Source: Paramecium tetraurelia (Eukaryota; Ciliophora; Oligohymenophorea; Peniculida; Parameciidae). From it: a stretch of DNA of 64,000 nt. The position numbers and the translations under genes were made by a program. The stretch is from assembly GCF_000165425.1 (NCBI RefSeq), contig NW_001799122.1, positions 71,454 through 135,453 on the forward strand. The letters are read 5' to 3'. The notes beneath the pieces are model-generated. The model was given only the letters and a program-made list of their open reading frames with translations. It did not search any database and was not told the DNA's origin. This document shows, piece after piece, positions 3,101 to 50,602 of the stretch (positions are counted from its first letter, which is position 1; each line of letters opens with the position of its first letter).

Positions 3101-6100
3101 TTAACTTTATAACATTAATCACTAAAAATGCAATTTTCAGAATCCAATTAACAAGCCGCTTCATTATATCCTTTTTTCTCTGGATTTTCCTCCACACATG
3201 CAATCTTATTATCCATAAAAGATTCACACTTATGCAATAATTAATTGAATCGACAAGGATTTCCCGATTATTAAGCACAAAAGACACCTGAGTTAATATT
3301 TATTATTTCATCACATTATTTGTCTTCGAAATCAGTCAATTTAGCATTTAAACATTTATTATCTTTAAAGTAACAGTACTATTTTGGAGTTAAAATACTG
3401 ACACAAGTATATATATTTACATAGTCATCGCATCTTAAATACAATAATTGAATGTTTTTTACCTCAGCGCAGCCGTCGTTCCATAAAAGACGGACTGGCA
3501 ATTTTGTTATTTATAAATCTTTAGGATTATAAGAAATTGCCTCTTAAAATTATACACAAGTGTTTTTGTTAAAGGAATCAATATTGGACAGTTAATAATT
3601 TTAGTAGAACCGTTAATGAGAAAAGCAGGTAACATTATCACAATACTATTTATAAATTTTGCACATTTTTTCAAATTTATCATAAAAGCATGCCTCTTTA
3701 TCTTCTATTTTAGAACATGTAATTGGGTTAGTTTAGAATTGTGTCTCACACTTAATACCTGTAATATCAATTTTCTAGCATTTTTTTTTTTCGAATCTAC
3801 AAAATTATCCTTTTGTTGTAATTGCTAAACACTTATTTTTGTTAACTTAATCGTCACAAAAGGAGTATCCATAAGAACTCTCACACTTATTTTCACTTTT
3901 ATTAAATTCACATAACAATTTATTTGAATCATTTATGCAAGCCTCAAAATTTAACCCTTCGCATTTTTCTTATTCATCAGGGTCAGCTTTAACGCAAACT
4001 CTATTTTTATTATCATAAAAGCATGATTCTGTCAAATAAGAACATATTTTTTCATTCACATTGAGTTACAATGATTTACAATCAAATTATTCATCTTTTT
4101 TAACTTCAAGACATTCATTGTTTTCAAACTTACATGATATACGATCAACTTAAGTGCAAGCAAACTTATTTAATTTTTGTTTAGAGCATGAGTCTATTTA
4201 TATCTTATCAATTTTCTAACACTAATTGTTTTTGTACTCACAAAATGATTTTATTTAATTTAAACAAGCCTATTTATTAATACCGGGAAATGAGCAATCT
4301 GTTAAATTCGTATCTAAGTTTTCAGCCTTAACGCACTTTTTTTAAATGTCGCTATATACATATGCGTCACTGTCGATCTACTTACAAAAACTGCTAGAGT
4401 AAGTTGCATATTGTTCCTAAAGCAATTAATTAATAGGCATAAAATTTGGACTTTCGCATTTTCCTCCTTAAAATATACATTATTCTTCTTAATTCAAGCA
4501 AGCATTTTGATTTAGATTATTTTTGCACCCTTCTTTTTGGGTATGAATGGTGATGCACTTGTTATTTAAGAAAGCACATTTATTTTTAGTATTTAAAATA
4601 CAAGCGTATTTATTTAATCCAACAGTTTCACATTGATATAGTATAGGTTCAATAATTTCTCTGCATTTGTAATTTTTACTTAGAATACAAGGTTTTTGAG
4701 TTTTCATGGATGTACAAGTTAAAGCATTCACATGTGAAATACCAGATTATTATAAATCAGTACAATTTTTAGGTTGATCAAAGAATATAGCTTATACACA
4801 TTTATGACTGTTATCAAACCACACACAAGATTGACTTTAGCAATTTAAACATCCAAATTTATTAAGACCATCACATTGTTATTGTTCTGATGCAATTTAA
4901 CAAGTATCACTTGTCCATATACATGATTCAACCATAGATTATATGCAAGTTTACTTATTCTTAAATGATTGACATTCTCCTTTAAATGGATTATATTTCA
5001 TACATAATTTAGTTTCCTAATTGAACCAACATAAATTATATTATTTTTCCTTACAAGCATCTTCATTTAAAATAGCACAATCTAATAAATCTAAATCTTT
5101 ATCTTCTATGTTTTAACACTCAAATTCAAATTTTTTTCCCTTACATTTTGAAGTTTTATTCCATTTCCATTTACATTTTATACCTTTTGATTATGATAAA
5201 CAAGCTTCTTTATTTAGAATTTTCACATTGATTAATAGTCTTATATATAGGTTCACATTTTTATTTAGTTGTGTTATATTTCATTGGTTAATCTTTACAT
5301 CTTATGCAAGCTTATTAAGACACAATAAGGTCTATTAATTCAGTGCAAGTAGAATGAGTTGCATCCTCACATTTATTATCTTTAAATTTGCATGCTTGAT
5401 CAACATAACCACAAACCTTTTCTTTATTATATTCTACAAACTCTGTAACTTCATAACATAAAGAATATTAATTTGAGCAATCTTCTTCATTTAATTAAGG
5501 ACTATTATGTTCATTATTTTTTAATTAAATGCAACCTCCTTGTTTTAAATCAAAAAAATATTCTTCTTTTTTGAAATTTAAACAAAGTTCTTTCGAAAAA
5601 GAAAGATTTTAATTTCTCTCTGCAGTTGTCTTCTTTTAAATCCGAGAAGTTAAATTATAAGTTACTTAAGTATTATTTAATTGAGAAGTATATATAGAAA
5701 CATAAGTACTATCGGCATCATCATCTAATTCCTCATATACTTCAGTAATAGTATCTGACGAATTATAGCAAAACATTTCTTCAGAGATGTATGTAGTATT
5801 TTTTATGCAAAATTTTTATTAGTTTTATTCGTATGTAATAAATTATTATTCTAATTAAAATTTAATAATCTATTTCTTACAAAACATATTAATCTAAATC
5901 CATTCTATTGAAATCTGTATATATGGATTCTTTTTTTATTCTTAGTAGTCAGAGCTAAATTCATAAGTCCACGAATTATTGCCTACAAAATAGCAGTTGT
6001 TTTCAAGTTGACATAGTCCACCGAATTAATAAGTCAAATTATAATCGATCGGATCGGTTTATTTATAAATATAAGATGCAAAAGCAATTTTATTAGGATA

Positions 6101-9100
6101 CTATTTTTCTTTTTGAAAATCCGATAAATTATATTATTATTATGATGTTTCTAATTCTTTACATTCAAGAGTAATTGCATTAAAGTAACAAGAAACAGGT
6201 AAATTCCTACATACTTCAATATTGATATAGTTTCCAAATTTCGGGGCACAAGCGAATTATTAATCATTAAAGTATTTACAGAAATTATTAGGGATCGACT
6301 CATTTTAATCATAAAAACACAAGTACCCTTGCGTATAAACTAAGCACGCATATTTATTCATTTAATAGTTAGTACATCCACTCCTACTTTAGTAATCTTT
6401 AAATTTTTAGCATTCATTATTTTCTCTTTTATAATAATACGCAGCATCTTAAATTGATAAGCATGCTTTTTCATTAATTAATTTGTATGAATCTTTTAAT
6501 GCATTTGGATCGTATTGAAATATTTAACATTAATATTCCTTATCATTCCACATACATCCTTCTTTTGTTACCTTTAGACATAGAACTTTATTTAGATAGT
6601 CATCGCAATTTAATTCTGAAATTTCAGTACCATTTTAATAGCAAATTAAATTAGCTGAATCCCATCTACATTAACCAATCGTGTTATCATAGCAATATCT
6701 ATTATTGCCACTAAATTTTGAAATATCGCAATTATAATCTTCAAAAGTTTCATCTGATTTTATACAATTTTTCTTTTCTTCAGAATAACGCCACTTTTAA
6801 CCAACAGCATTAATACACTTACATACTTAAAAACTACCTTACCAATCATAATTTAATAAAATAGGATTCACATCTTATGTATATTCTAAACATGTATCAT
6901 TTTAGTAGGTAAAAAAACAATTCGAAATTTTGTTTTCTACACAAGCCTTAAGGTTTACATTCGAATTACAATCGTAAAATTCATCAAACACATCATCTTT
7001 TATAGTTTTACATTATAGGGCATCTGGATCCCATTTACACCAATTATTTTTAGTGTATCTTGTACATATGTTCTTATTTCCATTTGCATCTTCACATTTA
7101 GAAATATTATATTCAGAATTAACTTGAAATTCTTGACATCTTAAATTAGTAGAATTATAAGTAAAATATTTCAATTTATTCAATGCTGATTCTGTAGCTT
7201 CGATGGCTAAGCAAGCAAATTTATTCAATTATGAAGGTTCTTAAGTAAAAATTGTCAAATTAGAATATAATTAAAAATTGAGATTATTACAAACTTCTCC
7301 ATTATGATAACACAGTTAATTAGTCGACCACTCAATCATATGGCAAGAATTTCTATTCATAGATGAACAAGGTAACTTCAAATCATTATAGTATTTTTTA
7401 ACTTTATATTAATCAGATATATCAACAGTTTCAACTTTTAGTTCTTAGCATCTTTAATCACGAAAATAACAATAAACCCCTTTGGTTTAGTCTGAAAATC
7501 TACTACATAAATGTGCATTTATTCCAATCAAATTATATTCAGTACAACATTTTGTGTTACAATCAATTTTGAGTGGAATTTTACAATTTTTTGTTTTTCC
7601 ATCAAAGGTACAAAATGTTGAAACATCGGATAAAATTGATGCACAGACATTAGGATTTATTATGACGGATGCACCAGAATAAGCGAAACATTTCTCATTG
7701 TATGTAATTGATGTTTCAGTGCAAGTATTTAACTTAAATGACCAAATGCACGTTTATCCTTTCTTTGTTATTGAAGAGCAAGCAAGTTTTGTTAGATAGA
7801 TTGATTTGCATTCTTCAGAGTCATAGTAATTAGGTCTTATAATTTAATAATCATTGAGATTTGCAACAACTGGTATAAAATCTATTTCTTATTTTACAAT
7901 GCAAGAGACTTTATCGAAATAACAATTTTTCTTTATTTATTCGCAGCCAATAGCATTCAATCCATCTGTTTTACAATCAGTTTCCTTTTTAAGATTATTA
8001 CTGCATCCTTTTTATTCATAAGAATATATACAAGGTTCATTATTATACTATGCTAAAGCACAAGCTTAATAGTTAGCATGTTATAAGTCCATGCAGAGAA
8101 CATTTGCGATATCTTTTCTTTGTTTTATATATGAACATTAATCTTAATGCCATCTACAGGGAGTGGATGGAGTAGTAAGAGAGGCGCATAATACTTTATT
8201 AATTCCTAATGATAAGTCTTTACATGAAATTGTATATAATTCCTGAATTATATTTAAAATCTATTAATTTGAATCAATTGAAACTGATTTACATTGATAT
8301 GAATTTTGATCATAATAGCAACCAATAGAATTACTTTCATAAACTTAAGAACAAGATTATGCATTAACAGATTTTAAAGTTTCACATAAAGTGCTATTTT
8401 ATTGAATTATGATGAATCTACATTTATTTTGATACCATTAACATGTTTAATGATGTTTTTAAATACTAATACAACCAAGAAAATTAAGAAATGGAGTCTC
8501 ACATTCATCATAATTTGTACTTGCAACACATAAATTTGTGTTTTTATCATATTTACATAAAACATTTGATTTAGATATAGCTTAACAAACATTTCCATTA
8601 ACTTTCATTAAATCGTTATTAAATTTTAAAGGACAATCAATATCTTAATTCATAAATATTCTTTCACAATTATTTCCATTCCATTAACAATATTGAAATT
8701 CAGTTTCTAAATTAACACATGCCTATTCATTCAAATCCATTTCACATAAATAATTTTTAAGATCTTATTCATTAAGTTCTTAACATTTTCCTCCATAAAA
8801 ACAACAATTTTTATTTTTTACTAAAAGACAACCTTTCTTTGATAATCCAATTGTATTGCATTTCAGAGAATGTAATGTATCTCTCTGAATTTTTTAACAG
8901 ATTTTCTCTTTTCCATTATACATGCAGGCTCCTTTAGAGTTTGAACAAACAGAAGAATTAACTATGCCTCTAGTGGGACAATCACCTTCTTTACTTTAGA
9001 ATACTCTACAAGAAGATTCAAACCATTCGCATTGCAATTCATTATTTTGATTTGATGAAAGACAGGCATTTATGTTCAATTTAAGATCACATGATGTGAT

Positions 9101-9852
9101 TTAAGAGGGCTCAATAGAACTACAGCGTTTATTTTCAAAAATACCTAAGATAATTTTTAAATCTTACATTTTTAATCTATTGTTTTAATAGCAATACATG
9201 CTTTTTAATTCAATCCCATCTAATTGCAAGTTATTGTATTTAATTAGTCAATTGGTACTTCTAAACATCTAAAGTTACCATGCTTCCAACTACTCATGCC
9301 TACTTAGTAATCTTAGTATACATAAGTCTGATTGAGATTGTTAACAAGTATAAGGAGTAACAGGCAAATTGGATGCATAACATTAATTTAAGTTAGAATT
9401 ATCGTCTAAATTTTTACAACTATTGTTCCAAACACAAACTTTTTAGGGTAAATTCATGCAAGCTAGTTTGTTAATTCTATCAGAACAACTTAACGTCTAA
9501 AGTTGCACATCGTTTATTAATCGGCATCTCTCAAGAAAAATGCCTAAAATATATAGATTTCTACAATTAACATCCTGTCCTTTTTCGTCTGTTAATTAAT
9601 AAATGCATGCCTCCTTATTTAGGTTAGATGAACAGCCTAAATTTCTTTAATCTATTTCCAAACACATATTTTCTTCTAAGTCATACCTACCTATAATTTT
9701 TGAACAATGTTACATTTTACTAGGCTTGTGCTATTTATACATAAGAGGGGAGACTGAAGGTAAATGTTACATGTAATCGATGAATTTATTGTTTAAGTAT
9801 TGATAAACAAAAGTAAGCTAATCAATAGACTATTAAAAAGCAAACTTCTCAT
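136..9852 (-). CDS. Giant cysteine-rich secreted/surface protein (left paralog)
   Basis: About 3,200 residues. The start at 9852 opens a hydrophobic signal peptide (MRSLLFNSLLISLLLF...). The body is hundreds of regularly spaced cysteines in recurring units of the style G-[LI]-N-K-x-A-C-[LI] followed by C-x-W-[ND]-...-C. The C-terminus ends in a hydrophobic stretch (IFPIFALISFILI) just before the TGA, as in proteins that receive a GPI anchor. Introns seen: 9691-9713, 9300-9321, 9145-9167 and 409-429; the first is phase 1 and interrupts a conserved cysteine codon, exactly as in the right paralog. It is the tandem duplicate of the gene at 10213-20426 but more AT-rich and clearly diverged. The general plan resembles Paramecium surface proteins (immobilisation-antigen-like), but I cannot assign it to a named antigen; function is inferred from architecture only. 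Confidence 0.8.
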
Positions 9853-10212: not shown

Positions 10213-13200
10213 TCATAAATTCATTACAATTGTTAGAAAGATGGGCATTAGTATATTTGCATTATTTGGGGCTGGTAAGTTGATTTATGGTGCAACAACA
10301 TTACTTAAATGGGAGGCGCAGATTTTATTGATTGAATCCCAAACACATTCATCAGCTTAATTGCATTATAACTGGTTATAGTTGTATTGGCATAATGGTT
10401 AGCAAATCTAAATTAATATTGTCATAAAAATACCTTTGATGAATTATTGAACCTGCAATGAGTACTTGGACAGTCATCTTGGTTGTGATGTTGACAACTC
10501 TTTGATCTACACTTTTTGTTAAGATTGTCATAAGAGCAGAACAAGGATTGATTTAAACAGATACAAGAATCTTTGATTTCTTCGCATGAAACACAAGAGA
10601 AATCATTCATTTAAACACAGACGTCTGTTCCAATATGTGTACCCATGCAATCTCCCTAAGAAATACCTAAATATCTGCACCCAGTAGATGTGCATTCTTC
10701 AACTTTATTAAGAGTTGCAATCCAAGCACATTGAATTCCTTGCTATTTTTTAAGAATGCAATTGTCACTGGTAGAGATCTACGAACAATCCAATTGCAAT
10801 GTACATTTTTCTTATTAATCATCCCAATCACAGTTACTCTATAAGCATTATGTCTTTCCCATATATTCACAGCTTCTGATTTTGCAATATCCAACAAAAA
10901 CACACTCATTGATAAATTATTCACAATTGGCTTAATCTAAATAATTGCAATTAAGATTCTCACAACCAGTCAATGATGTCTTATTTTTGCATCTTTAGTT
11001 GTTAATTTTATAAGTAGAACAATCAAGAGATGTTGCAATTAGTTCACTGCAGTTATTTGCAGGTAAACACTGTGATTTAGTATTTAAATAACAAGTAGTA
11101 TCTCCAATCACAGTTCCTTAACATTCGCTAGCAATCATATCTGAACATTTTTTATTTCTGCAAGTACCATAATTTGTGTTTTTCAAATACTAAGTAATAT
11201 CCTTATTGGTCTTGGATTCTGAAACTTCGAAAAAGCAATAGTCTAAATTCTCGCATTTATTATATTCAAGAATGGTTGAACATACAGGGAACTATTCAAG
11301 ATAAGCAAGACACTGACATTTAGAGTCACTCCATTTACACTCATCTAAGACATTACAACCTAAAGCACTTAAGCCTAGCGTATTACAATTGTCTGTGATC
11401 GTAGACTTAATACAACCATGAGTTAAATCACTATATTTACATCTGTCTATAGCAAGTGTGCATACTTAATAATTAGCTAATTCAGCCTAATTGCAAAGTA
11501 CATTTACGTTTGGATCTTAAGCCTGGCACTTCTGATTCTTAAATATGCAACCATTTATCGAAGAACAAGCGACAGCATTAATTCCATCAACATCACATTT
11601 CGTATAAGTTTGAGTAGGAATTTGACATCTATTAAGAGTTTAGTTAAACACACATGCATCATCTAATACATACGAACAAACGGAAGAATTCACATCAATA
11701 AGCACTTATTCACAAGAAGTAAATGGTATGTACTCTTGGCAAACAAAATTACCATCTGAATCCTCCATCCAAGCACATGGTCCAGTCTTTAAATTTAAAC
11801 ATGCAAATTTGTTAAGTCCCTTATCTGAACAGACGGCTGTATTGATATCAATAAGATCACAACCAACTTCACCTGAACCACATGGTAGTTGTAGAGAGAG
11901 TTGAGAACACAGTTGTGGTCCCAGTCCATCTCTTTTGCAGGTTGTTGATTATAATAGTCGATGAGATTATAGTTACTCCTCGACCAGAAGTCTTTTGGCT
12001 TCAAATACACAAGTGCGATTTTTTTCATCCCAACTGCATTTCTATAAGGTATTCTTAACACAAGCCTATTTATTGAGACCAGGAGTCATTGGGAAACAGG
12101 TTAAATTATTAAAATCGGTATCTTTAATGCATGTTAAAGTATCTGAATTATATCTGACCATATCTCCATTGTTAACTAATGAACAAGCATTACTATTAAT
12201 CAAAACATAAGTATTAGGAGTGATTATTTCCCCTTTTATTATTGGAATTGCTTAGCATTACTCATCATTCCAATAGCATTACACACCTTTCGTAGTAATC
12301 TTAAGACAAGACAAATAACTAAGTTGATCTGAGCAATTCCAAGTATCGAACTCTTTGAACACTTTACATTCACCAATAGTTATTTCGGTTTCTTATTTGG
12401 CTAATGATGTTTTTTTAATTTTAATAGTTTATAAATCCCAGAAACATTCATTTTTTATTTATTAGGTGCATGAAACCTTATTAATGTTGTTTAAACAATT
12501 ATTTTAACTTGGTACTTCATTAAATGTTTTACATTGATTATCTACAAATTAACATAATTGTCCTGGTCTTTCCACATCTAAACAGGCTCTCATATTGCCA
12601 GATGCAACTTCAATATCCTAACATTCGTCATATAATTTTTTTTCTTTGTATTCACATTGATCTACTTCTGAATTCCAATAGCATGGTAATCCTTAAATCA
12701 TTTTACATTATGAAGGTGTCTATGCTTGGTCACAATTGGTTGGAGTGATAGATCTACATTTTTTAATAGTGGTGTCAAAGATGCAAAAACTGCTACTGAT
12801 TGATGTACATATATTCCTAGATGCATTTTCAATCAAATTGCAATCAGTTTTAATTGGATGTATAGTTTAAGCATTAATTAGTCCAAACACAATTAAATTA
12901 AGATTAGAATAAGCATGATTCTAAATTGGAAGCGAGGGTACAACAATCGGCAACTTGTTTGGGATCACAATTCAAAATCTAATAATTTGGTCCATAACAA
13001 TAATTCCAAAACTTACACTAGAGTGATTAGGTTGTTTTGTTCAAACATGCCAGTGGATTTAGACCTCTGTTGCAACTGAATTCATCAGTTGGTTCTGTTA
13101 GAACACACTACTTCTTCTTAACATCATATTTGCATAGTTCATCTTCTACTGATACTTATTCGCAAAACATAAAACTATTAATAATTCCTACTTCTGTACA

Positions 13201-16200
13201 ACTTGTGTCTTTGATAGTTAAGGGATTGATCTCTTAGCACTTCTCATCTATAAATTGGCAATATACTCCATTAGTCGTAACATTTTAGCAACCAAATATA
13301 TTAACAGCATCTTGACATTTAATTGAGGATAAATCTGAAATCAGAGTACAACTATTATCTTTAAATTAGCATGCTTCATATTTTACAGCCTAACAATTCG
13401 TCTTATTATTGGTTGCATCAGCACAGAGAGAATATTCACCCTCCTCTTTTTAATAGCAACGATCACTGAATACACAATTCTTATTCGTTGCACATGCAAT
13501 CTTATTGTATCCATTAGTTTATACACTACAATCAACTTCATCTTCAGGATTGAGATTTACACATTTATAGTCGGAAGTACTAAAGTAACAACTACTGTCA
13601 GTAGGTTTCTCACAAATAATGCTAGAGTTGATATTTTCGTAACTAACACAAGCTTTTGTGAAATCTGTGACTTTTTCGCATTTATTGGTGGTCTTATTGA
13701 ATATACATTAAGCATTGGGATTAGTAATATTTATACATCCTAATCGATTGGCCTAACTGTCGCAATCAAGATACAATAATTATTATGTAGGTATTTCTAA
13801 ACACTCATCTTTCCAATAGGTTAATTTGCTATCAGCTTCATAGAGTTGACAAGCTTTGGAATTAAACGAGATTCTATTAGCCCACTCGGTTAAAGTATCT
13901 GATTTAAATTCTTCGCACTTCTTTTCATTATCATTGTAATAGCATGCTGTAGAAGCTTAGGCAGTAGCAAGAGCGCAAACAAGGGGATTAGTTTGTTTGC
14001 TAAATACACCACATTTAGCTATATCTGCGTTGATTACTATATCTTGACATCCCAGAGTGTCATCAAAATAGCAAAATTGCTTTTTGGTTCTTATAGATAA
14101 ACACTTGTCTTTGTTGACTAGATCTTTACAATTAGTATTTCCATAACTATTTTAGCAAGTACCACCTTAAAAGATACACAATGAACCTTATGTTTGGAAT
14201 CGGCATCCAATTAAGTTTAACCCTGATTCTTTGCAAACATAAATCTCACTTTTATCAATTACTTTACACTAATTGGTTTGGGTATTCAATCTACAAGGCA
14301 AATCAGTTCTGGATGCACAAACACTTGAGCTTACAATGGCCTTTTAACCTTATAAGGTTTAACAGGTGTCTAGTTTGTCATCTACATCTTAACACTTATT
14401 ATCCTTAAATTTGCATAATGTTCCTTTGTCTGTGACTATCAAAGAGCAAGAATACCAATTCAAAGTGTCAGAACAAGATAAAATCTGTTGAAGTGAAGTT
14501 TTGGTTTGACTTTAGCATTGGTTATTGGTGTAACTACAAAAAGTGTTGGTTTTAGTGAGACAGGCAAATTTATTGATGCCAGGTAGGGTACAATCACTAA
14601 TATAAGGACTTCGATCAGTAATTTAAATGCATCTTTATAAGATTGTGTTGTAGATGAAGGATTCTTTATATGTCTCACTGCTGCTATCAAGTTTAGAACA
14701 CACAGATATTGAATAAGGGTAATTTACTTCTGATTTTAAAAAGTCATCGATGGTATCTACTGTAAAATCTCCACAAACCCCTTCTGTGAATTTGCAAGTC
14801 TTTTTTTAATTTATACAAGCACCAATGCTCAAATTGCTTAGACATCCAACATCTTAGCTTGGTTATAGTTAACATTGATTATTATCATATTTACAATTGC
14901 TGTTTGCTAGGTTGATACAAGCATACTTATTCAGCCCAGGAGTAGTACAAGTAAAAGTATCTGTAATGATTGGTTCTCTACATTAATAATTTTAATCTCT
15001 AAAGCATAATTTACTTGCATCTTTATTAGTAATAACTAATTAACTACATATTTATGCATTAAAGTATAAGTATACAGGGAGACTTGCATCACTTCCTAGA
15101 AAGTCTGAACAGCTGACAAAATTAGCAGAATCCAAAGTAATTGCTTGACATTGATTGCTGTTTAACCATCCACAAGGATGTACTTTATTATTTAAGCATC
15201 CATATTTATTGGCTTTATCGCAAGTGTAACTGGCATCCATTGTTGCATCTTTACACGAACTGGATGTGCTATCCCAGATGCAAGCCTGAGCATTGGAAAT
15301 TCTGCACAGATTTTGGTTTGGTAATTAACTACATTTTCCCAAAGATTCAATATAAGCTGTACATAAATTAGTATCTGGATTCACCCAACAATTAGAAACC
15401 TTTGAACAAGAGACAGTATTATAAATTGAACAATCACTATTATCAGCTGTTGTGAATGATTGACAAGTATAATTTAACCATCTACATTCAGCTGTTGTAC
15501 TTTACAAACAAGCTAACTAATTAAGTTTATCACACTTTGAAGCTTTTGAACTTGATAATGATTTACATCTCTATTTATTGGAATCATACTCCACTAAATC
15601 TCCTGTACATCTAACGCAAGCCTTTTCTGATACTGTTTGATCCACTAATTAACTACATGTATATCCTGTTGCATCAACACACATATTTGTGTAGATACAA
15701 GATTAGGATACCCTACCACACACTTATTCTGCTTTACTCGAATTTAATAAATTGACTTCATAACATAAATAGTACTTATTGGTTTTTAACTCAGTTTCAT
15801 TATTTTCTTTTGTAAGGGTGAGACTTGTTTCATTTAATTAAGGAAATAGTGAAATGGGTGCAATTTGACAATATCCTAAAGTATCAAAATCACATCCACA
15901 ATAGGTACACAACTTCTTACTAAAACTAGAATCACAAGCAGGTGTACAACTGGTATCTTTGGTAATGGTTGTCACACATTTACTACCTTCATAACGACAA
16001 ATATCTATTGCATTAGCACAAGCACCTTTTGATATACTTTATGCAGGAACATCGGCGCATTTATATGATGACATCAGAACAGAATTTGAAGTGCATTTAG
16101 TTACAGTTCTCTCCAAGGTCTTACAACTTGTTGGAACTGTCTCAGAACTGCTTTCTACTTTACATAATGCATATCTTGATTAACTTTCTACACAGTTATT

Positions 16201-19200
16201 TTATACAACACTATAAACACTGTCACAACTGGGTAATTTCCTTTCATTTTAAGTTAGAGGATTGCACCCTCCTTAGTTTAAGTCAAAGTAACAATTAGCT
16301 TCACTCATTTCTAAGCAAAGAGCCTTTGAGTATCTATATGAACATTCCTTAACATATAGAGCATCTTTATTTTAATCGTTCTAACATTTTGGTACTTCAG
16401 TACAAACCTCTTCGGTCGTAGTCTCATTCGTCTCTGGATTTGTTACAGTCTGGTCCTCACAATGCTCCTCCGTCCCCATAGAAATAGCATGTAAAGTTTT
16501 AATATCACATGTGTAAGTGCTTGAATTCCAATAACAATATTTTTCGTGATTACAAGTTTATTAGTGTTCTTCTTTACCTAAGCATTGAGAAATACCATAT
16601 GTTCCTGAAATTAAAGAATTTATTGATGAGCATGCCAATTTATTATAATATTATCCAGATTTATTTTTTAAATCTGAACATGAATCAGTTTCCTGTATTG
16701 TAGTACTCAAACATAATAAAGAAGTCGTATTGAATTGACATTGCTTAGGAATATCCATACAAACTTAAATGCTGATCAGAGTTGAAGTAGTGCATGATGA
16801 TTATTCTGCAGTAAATGGTTTACATCGTTTTGAGAGATCAGTTTCATCTGCATCGTAATAACAAGAAATTCCTCTGGTCTGTAATAGGCAAGATTATTTA
16901 TTGGTATAATATTAATTGCATGCACTCATTTAAGAGGACAAAATTGAGCATAGTTGTGATTCTACACCTTTACTATCAGTCGATACATTATGATAGTATG
17001 AGTTTCCTATTAAACTCATGCATGTCTGTTTATTGAATTCACTTCCACTTTCAATTTTGTTAAAAGAAGCAGAGTCAAACGATTCTAGTTTGTAGCATTT
17101 ATATTATGATATGTCCCAAACACAAGGTTCTTTAGTTACCTTTAGACATAAATTCTTATTTAAATTATCATTACAACCCAAGAGTTAAATACTAGTTTTA
17201 TTTTCATAACACTTTAATGATATTGGATCCCATCTGCATTGGTTTGAATTTGTTTTATAATAACAAGCTATTGAATTGCCTCCTTTTATATCACATTTCA
17301 CTGCATCGACATCGTGAGTAACGCATTTATAGGTGTCATCGAATTTGCACATTTCTTTACCTTTGGATACTTTTAAACATACAGGTGAACTCACCTATCC
17401 AGTTGCTTCAAAAGATGAACAAGTTACATCTGTTTGAGCTTCAATACATCTATCAGTATCATTATTGAATTAACATCCTAAATTTGCATGCTTAATACAC
17501 GCCTATTTATTTTAATTGTAATTGCAAGTATTTATTTATAAGAATTCGTCTTTAGGAATTGTTATGCATTTTAAATTTGTAGGATCCCATTTACAATAGC
17601 CATCCCCTACAGTTATTTTAGTAGCAAGACATAGATTTCTATTTCCAATTACTTTTTCACAGGAATCTTAATCAATTGGGGCATCTTATGAATTGCACTT
17701 GTATGCTATTGAATCATAAGTAAAATATTTCTTAGTATTTTTATTTGTCTTTGCTGCTTCTATACCTAAACAAGCATATTAATTCATTAATTTAGCTGCA
17801 GTAACAAACACACTAAAATCATTATAATTTGCATAATTAATATTAACACAAGATGAACCATTGTAATAGCATCTTTATTTGGACGACCATGTAATCATAA
17901 AACATGAATTAACAGACATCTAAGAGCATTTGAATTAATTTGCATTGAAATATATCCTGGCTGTGTCTGCACTCACTATTCCAACATCTTATGTTGTTAA
18001 TTGTTGACATCTAAGATCATTATTAAAAAAGCAGAAGGTATTGGCAGCTTTTGATGAATATTTACTACAAGAATGAGCATTTATTCCAATCTTCTCAGGT
18101 TCTGTACAACAAGGAGTGGAACAACTATCCTTATTAACTTCACAATTCGATGTTTTTGAGTTGAATTTACAATTGGCTCTGTTGACATCAACCTTAGCAC
18201 CTCCAATTGGATCATAATCTGGAAATTCATTCTCTATAGCTGCACAAGTATTTGCATTTACTACAACATTTTATCCTGAAAAGTTCGAACAAAGAGAATT
18301 GGAAGCAACAAATTAATTTTGGCATCTATTTGTCCTAAAAGACCAACTACAAATTTATCCTACAGTTACAATCTAGGCACAAATATCAATAGTTGGAGAA
18401 CTGGAATCACAAGTCATTGTGCTTAATAATTCAGCTTTGGCAGCAGCAGTAAGTTATGTTTATTATTAATATGGGTTTGAAACATACTAACATGAATTGC
18501 TGGAAGTATCAAAATAACAACTTCCACTTGCTACTGCACAGGCATAGGAATTCAATCCAGGAGTCAAACAATTCATATTACCAACAATGGAATTCACACA
18601 ACCCCTTTGAAGATCCAAATATCTACATGGTTCTTTGCCATATTCTACCAATCCACAAGCATATTTATTAACAAACTAAAGTTGTATACACTAAATTTAG
18701 GCTATTTGCTCTTTAGATTTGATTTATGAACATTGATTCTAGTACCATCTACACACTTGGCCAGGAGTAGTAATCGAAGCACATATTGATTTATTATAAC
18801 CAAACTTGGTGTCAGAACAATTGATTGTGTTTAGGAATACTTGTTCCTCCTTAAGTATAATTGATTTGCACTGCTAATATGATGGATCATAATAGCAACC
18901 TAGAGAGTTGCTCTCGTAGACTTGTGAACAAGAGATTGCATTAGCAAATCCAAGAGATTCACATAAAGTGTTATTGGGTACTATTTTTACATTGACACAT
19001 CCATCCTTTGTCCATTAACAAGAGTATCCTGCAGTAGTAATGCTGACACAGCCTTGTAAGTTGAGGAAGGAGGAATTGCAATAATCCTTCTCAGTACTTC
19101 TGACACATAGGTGAGTAGTGGAATTATATTTACATGTGACTCCTGGTTTGGATATGGATTAGCAGACGTTTCCATTGACTTTGGATTCTGCATTCAGAGA

Positions 19201-20426
19201 ATCTAATGGACAGTTGATATCCTGATTTAATTGGATTCTTGTGCATTCGACTCCATCCCATTTGCAATATTGAAATTGAGTCTCAATGTTGATACAAGCA
19301 TCTTCATTCAAATCCATTTTGCATTAGTATACCTTCAAATCAGATAGTGACATCTCTTGGCAGATTCCTTTAAAGAAGGTACAATATTAATTTTTAATTT
19401 GGAGACATGCTTACTTCGTTAGACCATAAGTGTTGCACTTAATCTTCTCCAATTAATTACTTGTAGGATTGACACATTTCTTGTAGGTTGAATCATACAA
19501 GCAAATTCCATCAAATCCAGAACAAACTATTGAGTTGACTTCTGTTATTTGTTCACAGGACTATTTGGTGTCAACGAAGTCCTTGCATGCACTGTTTTTC
19601 CATTGGCACTTCAATTTTGGGTTTATGATTTATAAACAGCCTAAGCGATTCAGCAATAAACCACACTTTTACGGGTATGTTGAAATCACATTCTTACACT
19701 GGTTATTTTCAAAAATACCTATAGTATTAATATTTAAACATACAAGCTCTTAATCTTTTGTGGATATCTATGTACATCCTTATTGGTTTAATCCGAGCTA
19801 ATCACAAGAGATCTTAGAGAGTAGCTGTTCTGTGACAGTGACACATTAGTAATCTCCTTTGAAACCACTACTCATGCCTTGAATTATGATTTCATTGAAT
19901 ACATTAAATGTTTTGAATCTTTTGGCACAAAGATGGAGTCACAGATTCATCGAAGATCTGCGAACAGTCATCTCCCAAGGGTATTTCGTTTTCATATGCC
20001 TAACATCCATTATTCCAAATACAATCTTTCTTTAAGGCATTCATGCATCCGTATTTGGAATATTTTATTGAGCACCCCAAATTCTTGAAATGCTATTTTT
20101 TGGCAGGCTGACACTTAGAAGTGAATATGCCTTTGGTTATATAAATGAGAATACATGTGGCTTCAGAATCGTCAGGATTCGTTAATTAATTTAAACAAGC
20201 CAACTTATTCAAAGTAGGTTCACAACCATAAGTGGTTATGGAGGTTTCAAGGCACGCATTTTCGAACAGACTAAATTCGCCTAAATTTATTTAAAAACCG
20301 ATTTATACACATAATTCCATCTGTTTTTGAGATACATGCCTTGGCATCCATGGGATAGTAATTACAGAACATCGTCGACCCCATGAAGAAGATCAAGCAA
20401 AGCAAAAAAAATCTTGGTAAAACCAT
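10213..20426 (-). CDS. Giant cysteine-rich secreted/surface protein (right paralog)
   Basis: About 3,390 residues. Starts MVLPRFFLLCLIFFMGSTMF, a signal peptide. The rest is cysteine-rich repeat units with N-K-x-A-C and C-x-W-D motifs, e.g. repeated G-L-N-[KS]-x-A-C segments. The last residues before TGA (10213-10215) are a short spacer and a hydrophobic tail (ILMPIFLTIVMNL), the layout of a GPI-anchor signal. Introns at 20281-20308 and 19878-19902 correspond in position and phase to introns 1 and 2 of the left paralog; another lies at 10408-10433 near the C-terminus. Colinear with the left paralog across both ends, so the pair arose by duplication of the whole gene. Only 79 bp separate its start from the divergent ubiquitin-conjugating enzyme, so they share a promoter region. 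The role is probably cell-surface coat or adhesion (inference). Confidence 0.85.
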
Positions 20427-30299: not shown

Positions 30300-33200
30300 A
30301 TGGATTAGGACCAAGAGATAAAAAGGAAGATAAGATCACATTCAGTCGAAAGAGGTACGAAATAAAATATTGATTGTAGAGAAAACGGAGAGTCAGTCCC
30401 AATTTACAGATGAAATAGAGGATGATAAAATAGTCACCATTGGTGTTTGCTGCATGGCTAAGAAGTCTTAATCCAAGGAAATGCAAGAAATACTTAATCG
30501 TATAAACCCAGAGTTTTTTAAAATTGAGATATTTTCAGAATAAATGATACTTGAAGATCCTATCGAATCATGGCCAATTGTTGAAACTCTTATCAGTTTT
30601 TATTCTGACGGGTTCCCTTTGAATAAGGCCATTGCCTATGTTGATTTGAGGAAGCCATTCATAATAAATGACCTAAAGAAATAGCAACTTCTGTGGGATA
30701 GGGAAAGAGTCTATACCTTACTAAAGAAAAATAAAGTGCCAGTGCCTAAACATTACTTTGTGTTTAAAAACCCGAATAAATATATCATAGACGACTATAA
30801 TCGGAAGGAAATTGAAAAGAAGTATAAACCAAGGAAAACTGAATAGGAAATAATTGAGGAAGAAGACAACGTTGATAGTGTTATAAGTTTTTTATAGAAT
30901 GAGGATTCATCCCAACATATCAAATCAGTTTAGACAGCAAAATAATTACAGGAATTGCTATTGCCTCCCAGGTAAGACACAATGGAAGAAAAAAATAAAA
31001 ATAAAATGAAATAAGGAATGAGATCTTATGATGCTAGATCATTATCAGCTGTAATAGATATTAAGAAGGATCCTAAAGAACTTTAGATCACTAAGATTGA
31101 AGAATGTGATGATTATTTATTAATAAATGGGTAGAAATTAGTTAAACCATTTGTTGAAAAGCCCTTTGATGCCGAAGATCATAACATCTACATTTATTAC
31201 AACTCAAGAGATGGAGGTGGATGTAAGAAACTATTTAGAAAGGTTGGAAATCAGAGTAGTATATTTGATCCAACTTAGAACAGTATTAGGAATGATAATG
31301 AAAACTATATTTATGAAGTATTCTTGCCTACAAATGGATTTGATATTAAAGTCTATACTGTAGGAGAGTTTTATGCACATGCTGAAGCCAGAAAAAGTCC
31401 AGTATTGGATGGTAAGGTTGTTAGATCATAGAATGGAAAGGAAATGAGATACCCTGTTTGTTTGACAATGGAAGAGAAGATGATGGCCATAAAGATTGTG
31501 AATATATTTGGTTAAAATATTTGCGGATTCGATTTGTTGAGAAGTAATAACAAATCGTATGTTTGCGATGTTAATGGTTGGTCTTTTGTTAAAGGAAATG
31601 CCAAGTATTATCAAGATTGTGCCACTATTTTGTAGAATATGATTTTGGCTAAATTAAGACCAACTTTATTATAGAAACAAATTTCTGATATCAATTTAGT
31701 TAAGGGATTCTACAAGAACTCTTTTAGACCCAGTTCAAAAGATTTAGACGGAAAAGAATAGAATTCTGAATTGAGATCTGTAGTGGCAGTATTTAGACAT
31801 GGAGATAGAACACCTAAGTAAAAAATGAAGATGAGATCTGCTAATGAATTGTTTCTCTCATTCTTTGATGAGGTTGCTGATCCATCTAAAGAAATTAAAT
31901 TGAAGCATCCAAAATAACTATTAAAATTACTCAATTTAACTAGAGAATGTATTGCCAAGACTTCTTGTCAGGATGATAATATCATTAAATTACTCTAAAT
32001 GAAGTCAGTTCTTGAATTAGGAGGGCATTTCGAAGGTATTAATAGGAAGGTCTAGATCAAACCATTAAAAACATAAAAAATAGAGAAAAATGGTTCGATC
32101 ATTGAATTCCCAGTTGAAGTCTTGTTAATCTTGAAATGGGGTGGGGAATTGACCTAATTAGGTGAAGAACATGCCGTTAGATTAGGTCAAGTATTTAGAC
32201 ACGATATGTATCCGACAGAGAAGGATGGATTACTTAGATTACATTCCACATATAGACATGACTTAAAGACATTCACATCAGATGAAGGCAGATGCCAATA
32301 TACTGCGGCAGCCTTTTTAAAAGGATTATTAGGTTATGAAGGAGAGGTGACTCCTATCTTAGCCACAATGGTGTAAAAGAATGAAGTCGCCCAAGAATTA
32401 TTGGATTGCAATAATCTAGAAATCGAGGAGGAAGTAGAAATAAAAACAATACTCCAAAAAATGTTAACTAATGATGAGGATATGTTGACGTAGATTTACT
32501 AGTACTTTCCTAATTTTAATATGACTCAAACTCAACACGATTTAATTAGCAAATTTAAATGTCCAAAGTCTATGCTTATTTAATTACACACCTACATTAA
32601 TTAATTAACCAAAAATATAAGGTAATTTTAGAATAAACTAATTAGACTTCACATCCACTTGGAAAAGAATTATTACATTACTCCAAGTGATATGGAACAG
32701 GGAGTTTAGACTATGTTTGAATCAGAAAATCTAACATTATTCTTTAAAAGATGGTACAAATTAGAATATGATTTCTTGTAAAAGGAGAAATTCAATATTT
32801 CTAAAATCCCAGATATTTATGATAGTGTCAAATACGACATGCTTCACAATCAGGATAAATTATAGTTTTATGAAAATTCAAAAGAGTTCTATTACTTGGC
32901 AGAATTGCTCAGTCATTTCATGGTTCCATTTGAGTATGGAATCACTACCAAACAAAAATTAACCATAGCCAAACGTGTAGTCGGTCCTTTATGCAATAAA
33001 ATCAAATAGGATCTCTTATGGTGGAATAGATCGGAATCAAAAAATCAGTAATAGGAGGAGGATTATTGGAAGTTCAGATAAACCGATGAAAGCGATTTGA
33101 ATAGTCCCTGGAGACATGTTAGAACGAGATTATATTTTACATCTGCTTCTCACTTATATTCTTTGTTCAACATCTTATATTATGGATTAGGACATTATTT

Positions 33201-33495
33201 AATCGAAGATGAATTCAAACAAAAACAATTGTAACAAATTTTAATGCTTTAATATCTGTCAAATATTGTTATTAAACTTTATGAAGATTTATCATCTGAA
33301 AAGGAGGATCCCAATAGATTCAGAATTGAATTGAGTGTTTCTGATGGCATTCAAATGCAATTCCCAATTGACAAAAATATGCTACCCAAAAGTGACAACA
33401 TTCACATTAACTAATCATTAAGATTGGATTAACTAGAAGAATTCCTTAATCAAATAATTGATTGTGCTTTTGGTGATGATGTTCAATCTTTATGA
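30300..33495 (+). CDS. VIP1: Inositol hexakisphosphate/diphosphoinositol kinase (VIP1/PPIP5K)
   Basis: 1,056 residues after removal of one 25-nt intron (near 30355). N-terminal kinase half: [11 protein letters not shown], then the F-Y-S-x-G-F-P-L-x-K-A-I-A-Y block, [18 protein letters not shown], and [21 protein letters not shown], all diagnostic of VIP1. C-terminal histidine-acid-phosphatase half begins [16 protein letters not shown] and contains L-T-Q-L-G and H-S-T-Y-R-H-D-L-K. The enzyme makes and breaks inositol pyrophosphates (IP7/IP8), cytosolic signalling molecules. Length is close to that of the fungal enzyme. Only 27 bp separate it from the next gene. Confidence 0.96.
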
Positions 33496-39953: not shown

Positions 39954-41103
39954 TCATCTATTTTTATATTTAATTATTTTTTATTGTAAGTAGTGAATTA
40001 TAGATTCGTATTTATCAGTCAATTCTTAAATCTTTTACAGATGGAACTGGATTGGTATCATTTCCAGAGTTTGACTTTGAGTAGTCATTGAATTAAACTC
40101 ATTGATCTAAAGTTAGGATTAGGTTTGAAATTACTATTAAACTGAAAATTATGTTTAATGTTTAGATTATTACCTAACTATTTTTATTTATTGAAATTGT
40201 TGTCCGAACTAAAGAGTACCCAAAGCATCATCTATTTTCGTTGGAGCAAGACATAGGATAATCTTTAATTGTGCCTATCCCAAAAAGGAATTCGATAACA
40301 AATTAGTCAATTTTGATTCCCTAAATGGTATGTATATTCTTTGCATCTAAATTATCTTTTTTTATTTTTATTAATCAATCAAACACTAAATGCATCTGTG
40401 TAATGTAAAAATGCTCTTATTGTGAGTCACCATCTGTCCCGAATTCCCTTTGCTAACAGATCCGATTTAAATTATTTTTATTTTTGAGTTCTGCATAGTC
40501 TTTATTTCTATTACAACATGAATAATCGAGTCATTCAAGTTTTAAATCACCTCACATAATTGCTTAGCTAATTCAATCCATTTCGATTGTCCAGTGGTAC
40601 TCAAGTGATTCACAATCTATTCATTGTCAATAATAAATATTTTCAATTCTGATATTTATTTTTATGAGTGCAGTTACTAAGAGTCTATAGATCACATATT
40701 TACATGAATCATCCTTATAGCAATCCCACTCTCTATGCTAACCAACCCTTATTTCAGTGTAAACAAGGATCCTATCGTACCAAACAGCGAATATGTTTTG
40801 CCGCTTCCTTATGAACCATATATAATCAAGTTTGAACTTATCCCATTTAAGGCATCTGTGACTATCGGATTTACAACACACAAGTAAATCTATTCTTAAT
40901 CACATTGTGGATCAAAAATCTGATTGAATTCATACTATTACTCATACAGATTAGATTTCGATATAATTATTTACTTCTAAGTAAAATGTATATTAAATTA
41001 TAAGTACATCAGTGAACGATGATATACAGCTTTCCTCTTTGTCTTGACTATTTAGATATGCTTTGATGCGAACTGCAACATATATTTAATTATAATTAAT
41101 CAT
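39954..41103 (-). CDS. Divergent kinesin-like motor-domain protein
   Basis: 363 residues with introns of 31 and 27 nt; frame is continuous to TGA. N-terminus Y-V-A-V-R-I-K-A-Y matches the first kinesin strand; Y-E-F-N-Q-I-F-D-P-Q precedes the P-loop I-I-Y-G-S-Q-G-S-G-K-T-Y; near the end N-K-S-I-F-T-L-H-R-C-I, Y-I-P-F-R-E-S-K-L-T-N-L-L and T-L-Q-F-G are the kinesin alpha-4 and later motifs. The switch II DLAGSE is not present; the equivalent segment reads I-I-Q-I-G-S-V-S-K. The usual switch I region is also not recognisable. No stalk or tail. So this is a motor-only protein of doubtful ATPase competence. Its ATG is 4 bp after the TGA of the PDE gene. Confidence 0.8.
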
Positions 41104-41107
41104 AATT

Positions 41108-43096
41108 TCATTTAGGTTGAATGGAAGCTAACTATTGTTTATAATATTCTATAAGTTCTTGCCACTTAGCTTTGTTTTTGTCCAAGTTTTAAAAGAAAGG
41201 TTCATAAGCTGGAAGGAATCCTAAGACACATGCAAATGTAGGTTTCACAACATAATCAATAAATCTGATAAAAAAGAAAAAGAATACCCCACTTATGCTT
41301 CAGCTGTGTTGGTTGTAAATCGATTACATAGATACGAGATTGGCAAACCAAGGTCTCTCTCTTTGTCTCCTTACAACCAAAATTCAGCTAAGACCTTTTC
41401 TGTCCATTATTTGTAGATTTCAAAGCTTTTAGTAGGATTGGATACATCAGAGGAATGTACAATCAAGTCCATCAATCTTTATTTATCCTTGCCATTGGGT
41501 TCAAAATCAGCTATTTTTGCATACTTAAATAATGAATACGAGCAGCAATTCTACTATTAGTGATGGCAAGTTCTGAAGCATGATGAGCCATGTCTGTGGA
41601 AAGTACCATTAAGATAATCGATTCTCTTATGCGTCTGTATTTATGAAATTAAAGATTTTCAAAAATATTGACTTTTTGATTTCCCCAGGCAATTTTGAAG
41701 CATTAGGAAGGATGATACATTTCTAAAACACTCTGATCATTGTATGTTAGAGCCAATTCATTTCTACTGTTGATTAAGAATGCATTAGTAAGTCCTGGAT
41801 GTCCATAATCATGAATAGCTCCAGCAATTAACACACAGGCAATGTCTTATTCATCTAATTAACCGATTTCTATGAATTTGCATTTGCTTAGTAAGAAATT
41901 GCAAGTTTAAGCAACATCTTAAGCATGAACCTTACTGTGATATGGGTTATCAAGATATCCTTTCATTACCTCTTCACAAGTACCCTCTTACCACTTTCGG
42001 TTTAATTAGGAACACGTCAAACAGATTATAATTTTCAAAGAGAAACAACATCAAATTCACCAATCCTTCGCCTCCTGATAGTTTGTCACATCTCAAAAGG
42101 ATCAATATAAAGATCATCATGTTATTTATATAATATCTCCAGTAACTATTCAATAATATAGTAAAATTACTCTTTTTGGAATATTAAGTTTTTAAAAATT
42201 AGCAATTACTTTCTTTTGTTGTTATTATTATTATTATTCATTTGTTACAATTCGTTTGACTTCAGCTCTACCTTATTAACTTTGATTTAGCCAGGCCATA
42301 GCCTATTTAAATTGAAATATTGGCTTACTTCAGCATTGTCTTCATCCAATTTACCCATCTAATACAATTGATTATTTCCTATCTTGTCAATACAATAATC
42401 AATATCCAATTTCATATTTTCATCTTCCAACACTTCCTTCAACTCGGCCAAGAACCGTACTATTTTTTCAGCTGGTGTGGAAATAGTGGAAATCGTTGCC
42501 AATCTCCTAAATGTCTAGGCCTTTCTAATTAGGAGAAAGATTCTTAAGAATCGAAAGACAGCCTAGATTACCTTGATTACATTAGATGTTTTTTGATCAG
42601 CCAATTCAAATATCACAAAAAAGAGTGACAATAAGATAATTAGAGTGTCCAAAATCAACCATTTGTCTTTATAATATTTCTACATTATGTATTAAAATTA
42701 CCTTAATGCCCCAAGCATACAAACCAACAAATATCTCTAGAATGAACACTATCAATATTCCAAGTTCTATCCAACTCAAAATTGATGAAACATTATTGAA
42801 CTCAGTTTCATCAAGCAATTCCTCCAGGGCCACAATGATAAATATTAATATTGCGTAAGCTCCCACTAATGCAATAATACTAATAGTAACAATCTTCGAA
42901 TTAACATAATCTTGAAACCTTTGTTCAGATTCTGTATACAATCTAACTGTTCACTGAATTAATTTTACCTCATATTAAGCTTCTTTCGAGGAACCTCAAT
43001 CAATTTGTCAGTTCTTTTTGTTGAATCCACTCTCATTGTCTATTTATCAGGATTCTCAAGACTTCTCTATTAAGAATCAGATCTTGATGGCAACAT
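41108..43096 (-). CDS. Voltage-sensor/cyclic-nucleotide phosphodiesterase fusion protein
   Basis: 613 residues. Residues about 60-220 are four membrane helices: W-I-E-L-G-I-L-I-V-F-I-L-E-I-F (S2), D-K-W-L-I-L-D-T-L-I-I-L-L (S3), and F-R-F-L-R-I-F-L-L-I-R-K-A-Q (S4 with arginines every third residue), i.e. an ion-channel-type voltage sensor without a pore. A Gln/Asn linker leads to a class I PDE domain: N-P-Y-H-S-K-V-H-A, I-H-D-Y-G-H-P-G, Y-N-D-Q-S-V-L-E, S-S-D-V-S-N-P-T-K and G-D-K-E-R-D-L-G-L-P-I. All metal-binding His/Asp residues are seen. Introns of 26, 22, 25, 22, 29 and 23 nt. It would hydrolyse cAMP or cGMP under membrane-potential control (inference). The 22-nt intron 41970-41991 is GC-rich and doubtful. 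Confidence 0.85.
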
Positions 43097-46818: not shown

Positions 46819-48581
<1,763 letters not shown>

Positions 48582-48898
48582 NNNNNNNNNNNNNNNNNNN
48601 NNNNNNNNNNNNNNNNNNNNNNNNNNNNNNNNNNNNNNNNNNNNNNNNNNNNNNNNNNNNNNNNNNNNNNNNNNNNNNNNNNNNNNNNNNNNNNNNNNNN
48701 NNNNNNNNNNNNNNNNNNNNNNNNNNNNNNNNNNNNNNNNNNNNNNNNNNNNNNNNNNNNNNNNNNNNNNNNNNNNNNNNNNNNNNNNNNNNNNNNNNNN
48801 NNNNNNNNNNNNNNNNNNNNNNNNNNNNNNNNNNNNNNNNNNNNNNNNNNNNNNNNNNNNNNNNNNNNNNNNNNNNNNNNNNNNNNNNNNNNNNNNNN
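48582..48898. other. Assembly gap (N run)
   Basis: A run of 317 N. It hides the end of the Polo-like kinase, the intergenic region and the start of the U2AF-like gene. The true gap length may differ. Confidence 1.
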
Positions 48899-50388
48899 GA
48901 AGGAGAAGAAGAGAAAGCGAAGTCGATCATAAAAGAAAGACAAAAAAAAATAAAAAAGTAAAAAATCTAAGGAAAGAAAGTCTAAGGAGAGAGAAAAGTC
49001 AGAGAAAAAGAAATCAAATAAGAAATCGGAAAAGAAGAAAAAAAAAGACAAAGAGAGAGAAAAAGAAAAGGATAAAGAAAAGGATAAAGAGAAGGAGAAA
49101 GAGAAGGATAAAGAAAAAGATAACAATAAGGTTGATGCATAAAAATAAGGTGAGGAAGTAGAAACCAAAGAAGTAATCAAAAAATTTATATTCCACTTTA
49201 GCAAAGAATTGCGAGATTAAAATAAGAAAGAAGAAAAAGATCCAGATCTAATTCTGCTGTCAAACATTATTAAAAATAAATACTTGCCAACAATCCTGTA
49301 GCTAAATCAAGTACTCAAAGTTTCTCTTATCTTAATTAGATGCTCTTGGCTATGATAAATAGGATTGCTTTTGGGATGGGTTTACTTGGGTACCTAAAAC
49401 TAATTTGCACGACAAAGTGAGAGAAGATAAAGAAAAAGTAATGTCATTGACTAGTAGAATGAGAAGAATTCAAATATGCAATATACCGACAGGTTTAACT
49501 AATCGAGATCTCTATGCTGAATTGAGCAGATTTATGAATAGAAATTACTTAAATGACGTTGGCAATGCTAAACCCATTCTTTATTGTCACCTAAACGAAA
49601 AAGATCGAACTTGCACTCTAGAATTATCATCTGTTGAAGAATCAAATAGAATGCTCAAATTGGAGGAAATCAAATTACTGGATGAATCATGTAAAATTTT
49701 CAGATTAGGCGACAGTCTCTATGGTATTTTATAAAATTATATTTTATTCAGGTTAATCGGTTAATCAATCATAATTAGTTTAATAAGCTCATAATATGGC
49801 CTAAGCATAAGCAGCCGCATATCTTGCTTTAAAATCACTAGGATATGCCAGAGGATAGAGGGAAGAAGATGAAATTCTGGGCTTAGGCAGGTATCCCATC
49901 CAGGATTATAAAGGTTGGAAATTTCTTAAATGTTGCTATGGCAATAAAATCTAAATAAAAATGAATGGAATGAAATGCGAGAAGATTTAACTTGAAGGCT
50001 TTTCATAATATGGTCATATAGAAGATGATTTCTTTTTGTTAAACCTTTTTAAGCAGGTCTTGGGGAGGTAATTGTGTCAATTAACCACTTTAGCCGAAGC
50101 AGGCTCTCTTTTTCTAGTTTATACAACTATTGAAGATGCCTAACGCACGGTAATATCGATGACTGGTATAACATATAATTAGAGAGCACTCAAAATTATA
50201 TTTATTAACGAATAAACCTATATTAGAAGTTACATCCCATTAAAATTAAAGTAATAACCTGAAATTGAAGAACCACAAATAAATCAAGAAAATGACAATT
50301 ATGATAATGAACCATTTGAAGATTAAGAAGACTATTTGGATTAAATGGATAATAAAGTTTTAGAGAATAATAATAATAAAGATAATTG
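48899..50388 (+). CDS. U2AF large subunit-like splicing factor (5' end in gap)
   Basis: The visible N-terminus is a Lys/Glu/Arg/Asp repeat region (K-E-K-D-K-E-K-D) like the charged RS-type arm of U2AF65. A tryptophan motif (D-C-F-W-D-G-F-T-W-V-P-K) is followed by RRM 1 starting R-R-I-Q-I-C-N-I-P-T-G-L-T-N-R-D-L at about 49463, with T-C-T-L-E-L-S-S-V as RNP1-like strand. After an intron (from about 49725) and a linker with A-Y-L-A-L-K-S-L-G-Y-A, a C-terminal UHM/RRM3-like domain has W-N-E-M-R-E-D-L and Q-Y-G-H-I. Ends in an acidic Asn-rich tail. A middle RRM2 is not evident. One apparent extra base near 49990 and an unresolved splice near 49300. U2AF recognises 3' splice sites; its ciliate targets would be the tiny introns seen here. 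Confidence 0.75.
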
Positions 50389-50602
50389 ATAATTTATATA
50401 TTTAATATTTTGTGTGGGAATCAAATCAATAAATTATATTGTCATATTAAGTTTTCAGTTACTTTTAATTATTTGGTTCTACTAAAATCTCCTTATTGTA
50501 ATCATAATCAATAATTCTATGTCATTTTTATAACCAATTGCAATTTGTGTAATGAAATATACTAACATAACTAAATTGTATCATATATATTTATTTTGAT
50601 AA

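Follow-up and report, generated by a model that had tools for sequence, protein, structure and literature searches.

The gene on the minus strand at 41108..43096 of the window, the 64-kb stretch C138:71454-135453 (GC content 29%) in a searched genome of 69 Mb and 231 contigs, raises the question whether a voltage sensor can directly control the breakdown of cAMP or cGMP. Our gene model, in which TAA and TAG encode Gln, starts and stops at the same bases as that of the first-pass annotation, and contains six introns of 22–29 nt (Table 1). The introns were placed by alignment with a relative on contig C58, L001, whose own introns follow amino acids 43, 123, 240, 283, 485 and 559, and six short introns occupy matching places in L003 on C157; the splicing of the window gene and its relatives is predicted throughout. 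Exons 2–3 encode S1–S4, exons 3–4 the linker and exons 5–7 the phosphodiesterase (PDE).

Table 1. Features of the gene combining a voltage-sensor domain (VSD) and a PDE, in window coordinates.
Feature	Position	Strand	Remarks
VSD-PDE gene	41108..43096	-	ATG at 43096, TGA ending at 41108; gene model; intron positions conserved with L001 and L003
Exon 1, cytoplasmic N-terminus	42969..43096	-	Frame same as L001
Exon 2, S1 and S2	42702..42942	-	Ion_trans match
S1 (approximate)	42822..42896	-	Counted from exon 2 translation; hydrophobic segment in L002 model
S2 with E-x6-F-x2-E (charge-transfer centre)	42708..42788, ends approximate	-	
Exon 3, S3, S4 and linker	42329..42679	-	VSD profile match
S3 (approximate) with conserved Asp	42605..42664	-	
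S4: KVIQAVFRFLRIFLLIRKAQTFRRL	42500..42574	-	Aligned with T-type calcium channel S4
Exon 4, Gln-rich linker	42171..42302	-	
Exon 5, start of catalytic region; both frame breaks inside	41540..42145	-	
First frame break, one extra base versus L001 and L003	within 42081..42098	-	DNA alignment
Second frame break, one extra base versus L001 and L003	within 41969..41984	-	DNA alignment
PDEase_I (PF00233) match, two pieces flanking intron 5	41239..41942	-	C138:112991-113395 and 112692-112964
Exon 6, metal-ligand Asp and start of purine-site region	41288..41510	-	
Exon 7, PDE C-terminal end	41108..41264	-	

The first-pass annotation had proposed a domain search for PF00520 (Ion_trans) and PF00233 (PDEase_I), and both families were matched, Ion_trans in its S1–S4 part only. 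In the window, PDEase_I is found at 41538-41942 (profile positions 1–132, 1.2e-38) and 41239-41511 (136–227, 1.1e-16), and it is above the cut-off in two further loci, L001 (2.9e-76) and L004 (8.8e-79). The metal-binding and purine-clamp motifs HxxxHAxDV, HDYGHPG, HSSDVSNPTK and QVGFID are present in L001 and in the window. Five of the six loci that combine a sensor with a PDE (L001, the window locus L002, L003, L008 and L009) carry the strict PROSITE signature H-D-[LIVMFY]-x-H-x-[AG]-x2-[NQ]-x-[LIVMFY], from which L004 departs by an Ala at the third place. A random-draw figure of 2e-5 for eight signature residues was set aside, because the residues had been picked after the alignment and the figure covered three of the six rows only. 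By sequence, the PDE of L001 is closest to 6ezu ('Phosphodiesterase', 1.4e-58), PDE1B (9.8e-58) and PDE4B (2e-55), and 151 distinct structure sequences reach an E-value of 0.001 against it. The closeness to PDE4 and PDE1 weakly favours cAMP as the substrate; PMC10865986 warns against inferring PDE substrates from phylogeny.

The Pfam scan, which covered L001, L004 and the window exons, placed Ion_trans well above its curated cut-off of 25 bits in the window protein spliced from exons 2 to early 5 (1e-13, 51.5 bits), in L001 (7.8e-13, 48.6 bits) and in L004 (4.9e-11, 42.7 bits). All three matches end at profile position 117–121 of 241 (window match 11–121), and the pore half is therefore absent. 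Hydropathy analysis agrees with this: exactly four hydrophobic segments lie ahead of the PDE in L001 (63–174), the window and L003, while three were called in L004, L008 and L009, in which S4 escaped the crude hydropathy cut-off. No hydrophobic segment was detected between S4 and the PDE, which argues against S5-P-S6 pore helices and upholds the earlier claim that the sensor lacks a pore. The description of an S1–S4 sensor likewise stands, with its four helices and Ion_trans match, whereas the regular spacing ascribed to the S4 arginines needs correction: the charges read R-x2-R-x5-R-K, at places that fit an every-third spacing in which one place is occupied by Leu.

Invariant in all six sensors are E60, F67 and E70 of S2, D92 of S3, and R124, R127, R133 and K134 of S4, with a sensor identity of 28–30% between the two subfamilies and 47 invariant positions across both; residues of the linker are also conserved between them. 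A profile of the six sensors matches 86 distinct PDB sequences up to an E-value of 10, and the 60 of these that were listed are mainly CaV and NaV channels and chimeras, along with 3wkv, 4g7v/4g80 and TPTE2 (9c49). The E-values are 4.6e-17 for the entire chain of a T-type calcium channel (3e-8 for the best of its repeats), 1.9e-8 for 3wkv ('Ion channel', which we take to be Hv1), 6e-7 for 4g7v (voltage-sensor phosphatase) and 4.4e-4 for TPTE2 9c49. In the alignment with repeat IV of T-type alpha-1H, the S2 Phe and Glu, the S3 Asp and three basic positions of S4 coincide. Two basic positions of the T-type S4 are non-basic in the family, namely an Ala/Gly three residues before the first Arg and a Leu three after the second, and the gating charge may therefore be small. 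The window protein has basic residues beside the predicted cytosolic sides of its helices (KKYYKDK, RKAQTFRR) and acidic residues in the S1-S2 loop, a distribution that fits a cytosolic PDE. From these comparisons, we conclude that the sensor carries the residues required of a working voltage sensor, and we infer from them that it is probably sensitive to voltage.

The four helices might instead be a mere membrane anchor, a former voltage sensor that no longer senses and keeps the PDE membrane-bound. Apicomplexan PDEs commonly carry transmembrane segments ahead of the catalytic domain (PMC10865986), three other PDE loci of the present genome (L016, L019 and L034) show two to three hydrophobic segments before the PDE without matching the sensor profile, and the two non-basic S4 positions point in the same direction. 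A plain anchor, however, would need neither the S2 E-x6-F-x2-E motif nor the S3 Asp nor the S4 arginines, all of which are invariant despite the low identity between the subfamilies, and we regard this explanation as unlikely, if deserving of serious attention. The sensor could also conduct, by a proton or cation leak as in Hv1, so that the PDE would be tied to permeation and not to S4 movement. The selectivity Asp of Hv1 lies in the middle of S1, whereas the hydrophobic core of S1 contains no acidic residue in the six rows inspected by eye (an Asp is found at its edge in L004, L008 and L009), and pore helices are absent as well. A conducting sensor appears highly improbable, notwithstanding the profile match to 3wkv and the ion currents through VSDs with which PMC10651576 deals.

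A further question is whether the sensor and the PDE belong to one protein. The whole-genome search gave PDEase_I matches at 69 places, grouped into 42 loci, and in PMC9608856 at least 40 P. tetraurelia entries with a PDEase_I domain are reported. The sensor profile matches six of the 42 loci (L001, L002, L003, L004, L008 and L009); it was built from the family itself, and a strongly diverged sensor could escape it. All six loci, in both subfamilies, have the order VSD, linker, PDE. In some stretches the window is collinear with C58, with 77–92% identity in the matches from 26 to 54 kb, and in inverted orientation with C157 (67–83% identity), and some of the VSD-PDE copies sit in collinear blocks of two ages. 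Together with the GC content, the genetic code and the short introns, this suggests a macronuclear genome of an aurelia-type Paramecium, in which whole-genome duplications have taken place. The tree comprised 41 PDE domains, with the window model omitted and the L008 domain shortened by its gene model; in it, the five remaining VSD copies form one branch (99/97) that is present in 200 of 200 bootstrap trees. The tree program warned that two long VSD branches meet here and may join falsely. A single fusion before the split of the subfamilies fits these data as the simplest reading, and the earlier statement that a sensor precedes the PDE in one gene is supported by the shared order, the collinear blocks of two ages and a tree compatible with a single origin.

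Two adjacent genes, one for a small VSD protein and one for a PDE, could in principle have been merged by a splicing error, as might be thought from Euplotes, in which PDEase_I and Ion_trans are reported as adjacent genes, 'always adjacent' in the wording of PMC8670190. Against this, L001 and L003 are read in one continuous frame between S1 and the stop codon of the PDE, with six short introns that leave no space for gene ends, the linker residues are conserved between the subfamilies, and six loci share the order. We consider such a merger extremely improbable. Since Euplotes chromosomes usually carry one gene, the Euplotes pairs may be fusions too. Outside the PDE loci, the closest relative of the sensor is found at C165:367320-367655 on the minus strand (3.1e-7, 30% identity); this relative may belong to a channel or to a further VSD enzyme. 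L017, L018 and L037, three PDE-like genes of strong divergence, are set apart in the tree by a branch 1.59 changes per column long.

The window copy itself requires a separate assessment. The first-pass annotation had called its PDE catalytic domain complete. The domain is present in the DNA, yet in the assembly it is out of frame with the sensor, as a consequence of two frame breaks that had been overlooked (Table 1). The two extra bases are 113 bp apart in L001 coordinates, and with the six introns conserved in L001 the frame hits a TGA directly after ...DLYIDPFEM, ahead of PDEase_I, which by its Pfam limits lies entirely downstream of the second break. A tblastn search of the window with the L001 protein gave frame changes at amino acids 301 and 337–338, where L001 has no intron. 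Models that remain open from 43096 to 41108 were rejected, because they need spurious introns (e.g. GTGTTCC...AAAG) in stretches that are coding in L001 and L003. The sister copies need no programmed frameshifting, which occurs in Euplotes and is not known from Paramecium.

Between the window copy and L001 there are 59 synonymous and 13 nonsynonymous changes in 300 codons upstream of the breaks (dN/dS 0.020/0.41), and 37 and five in 272 codons downstream of them (0.008/0.26), with gapped codons and those between the breaks omitted. The ratio of 0.03–0.05 indicates that the window copy, including its PDE part, was under constraint until recently. In a tblastn frame check of nine C58 genes, the target had two frame changes, and five of the eight others (103144, 106378, 109455, 110361 and 125848) were clean. 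The frame change of 114467 is perhaps explained by two closely spaced predicted introns, 118668 gave no clean reading, and 99259 was covered in part only. With five of eight genes free of unexplained frame changes, the assembly is not poor in general. A list of DNA indels, which is noisy for diverged genes, was also made for all predicted genes in C58:92000-131999 with a length of 100 aa or more; 15 of these have a match in the window and four do not.

We conclude that the two single-base insertions either arose recently or are errors of the assembly. There is close to an even chance that the window holds a young pseudogene, or a copy that expresses a truncated sensor only, while its sisters keep the function. 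The two +1 changes in exon 5, which are not compensated, and the frame check of the C58 genes speak for this, whereas selection has not been relaxed and residual assembly errors would give an identical picture. The matter concerns this copy alone and is compatible with voltage control of the PDE in the family.

To our knowledge, few enzymes are run directly by a voltage sensor, the voltage-sensing phosphatases (VSPs) being the best known. The protein resembles VSPs (Ci-VSP, TPTE/TPTE2) in having an N-terminal pore-less S1–S4 and a cytosolic enzyme that cleaves phosphoesters, and differs from them in its effector, which is a class I cyclic-nucleotide PDE and not a PTEN-like lipid phosphatase. 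No phosphatase family was among the Pfam matches of L001, L004 and the window exons, and the protein is therefore not a member of the VSP family. With Hv1, it shares a VSD without a separate pore, and is distinguished from it by the fused enzyme and perhaps, as judged by eye, by an S1 core without Asp. Rhodopsin-phosphodiesterases also have a membrane sensor fused directly to a PDE; their sensor responds to light, has more helices and is not a voltage sensor. The adenylyl cyclase/K+-channel fusions of Paramecium, Tetrahymena and Plasmodium likewise join a membrane-voltage module to a cyclic-nucleotide enzyme (PMC10651576, PMC4588038). These have a pore and make cAMP, whereas the VSD-PDE is pore-less and would destroy it; no cyclase domain was matched by Pfam in L001, L004 or the window exons.

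The pairing of Ion_trans with PDEase_I is already on record. TgPDE4 and TgPDE16 of Toxoplasma have pfam00520 portions and a C-terminal PDEase_I (PMC8809380), and the combination is also given for TgPDE4 in PMC7720076, according to which its catalytic signature residues carry many substitutions. Clade B of PMC10865986 unites TgPDE4/TgPDE16 with human PDE1 and PDEs of free-living alveolates. As far as a comparison by description allows, these proteins resemble the present family in the Ion_trans part before PDEase_I. There they are discussed as ion transport or cation-channel-like proteins and not as voltage sensors, and the word 'voltage' is absent from three texts covering them (including PMC8809380 and PMC7720076). 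A 2023 paper on VSDs lists channels, VSP, sNHE and the cyclase fusion, and the word 'phosphodiesterase' is absent from its text (PMC10651576). In the literature searched, which excludes most subscription journals, we found neither the terms 'voltage-sensitive/gated/sensing/dependent phosphodiesterase' nor a paper that interprets an Ion_trans and PDEase_I protein as a voltage-controlled PDE.

Judged by its domains and conserved residues, the locus is probably that of a ciliate voltage-controlled cyclic-nucleotide PDE, composed of a pore-less VSD, a conserved cytosolic linker and a class I PDE. By analogy with VSPs, cAMP/cGMP breakdown is best read as being under the direct control of membrane voltage. 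Depolarisation would move S4 outward, the S4-linker would relay this movement to the PDE, and the PDE would then hydrolyse membrane-near cAMP (or cGMP) faster, with the reverse on hyperpolarisation; the sign of this coupling is a guess from VSPs. In Paramecium, hyperpolarisation raises cAMP and beat frequency (PMC4588038), adenylyl cyclases carry a K+-channel domain, and phosphodiesterases are present in cilia (PMC4588038, PMC10651576). The VSD-PDE would act against the adenylyl cyclase/K+-channel fusions, which are linked to hyperpolarisation, and would make the voltage-to-cAMP signal by which ciliary beating is set sharper; the presumed ciliary location of the enzyme and the tie to beating are drawn from Paramecium physiology. 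We put forward, as a tentative proposal with somewhat less than an even chance, that voltage gates the destruction of cAMP/cGMP with the PDE switched on by depolarisation in opposition to the cyclase fusions, that ciliates use two opposite voltage-coupled enzymes, and that the arrangement may be ancestral to alveolates (TgPDE4/TgPDE16, Euplotes). If this is true, the VSD-PDE would be, as far as we know, the first voltage-run enzyme to remove a diffusible second messenger. It would then also explain in a simple way how Paramecium ends the cAMP signal on depolarisation, and would lend itself as a scaffold to tools for the voltage control of cAMP. We suggest that the 'ion transport domain' of TgPDE4/TgPDE16 be re-read as a voltage sensor.

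Several other genes were observed in the window. Adjoining the PDE gene, at 39954-40945 on the minus strand, is a remnant of a kinesin motor, which matches the last quarter of the profile only (252–327 of 327, 8.5e-15); its model needs five predicted introns and it may be a decaying gene. Very large open frames are present at 136-9742 and 12844-19875 on the minus strand, with one predicted gene of 3171 aa and an intron-free frame of 2343 aa. Their starts look cysteine-rich by eye, as those of surface antigens do, and a Pfam search of two stretches (12847-19875 and 139-5256) gave no match. The region 46819-50389 on the plus strand is the counterpart of a C58 gene of 1077 aa, and one of its exons matches Pkinase (8e-36). 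In the second half, the alignment shows mixed frames and single-base indels, and this copy may be degrading or mis-assembled. At 30370-33492 on the plus strand lies a diphosphoinositol pentakisphosphate kinase-like gene (PPIP5K2_N 1.8e-37, His_Phos_2 3.4e-52), the C58 counterpart of which is 88% identical.
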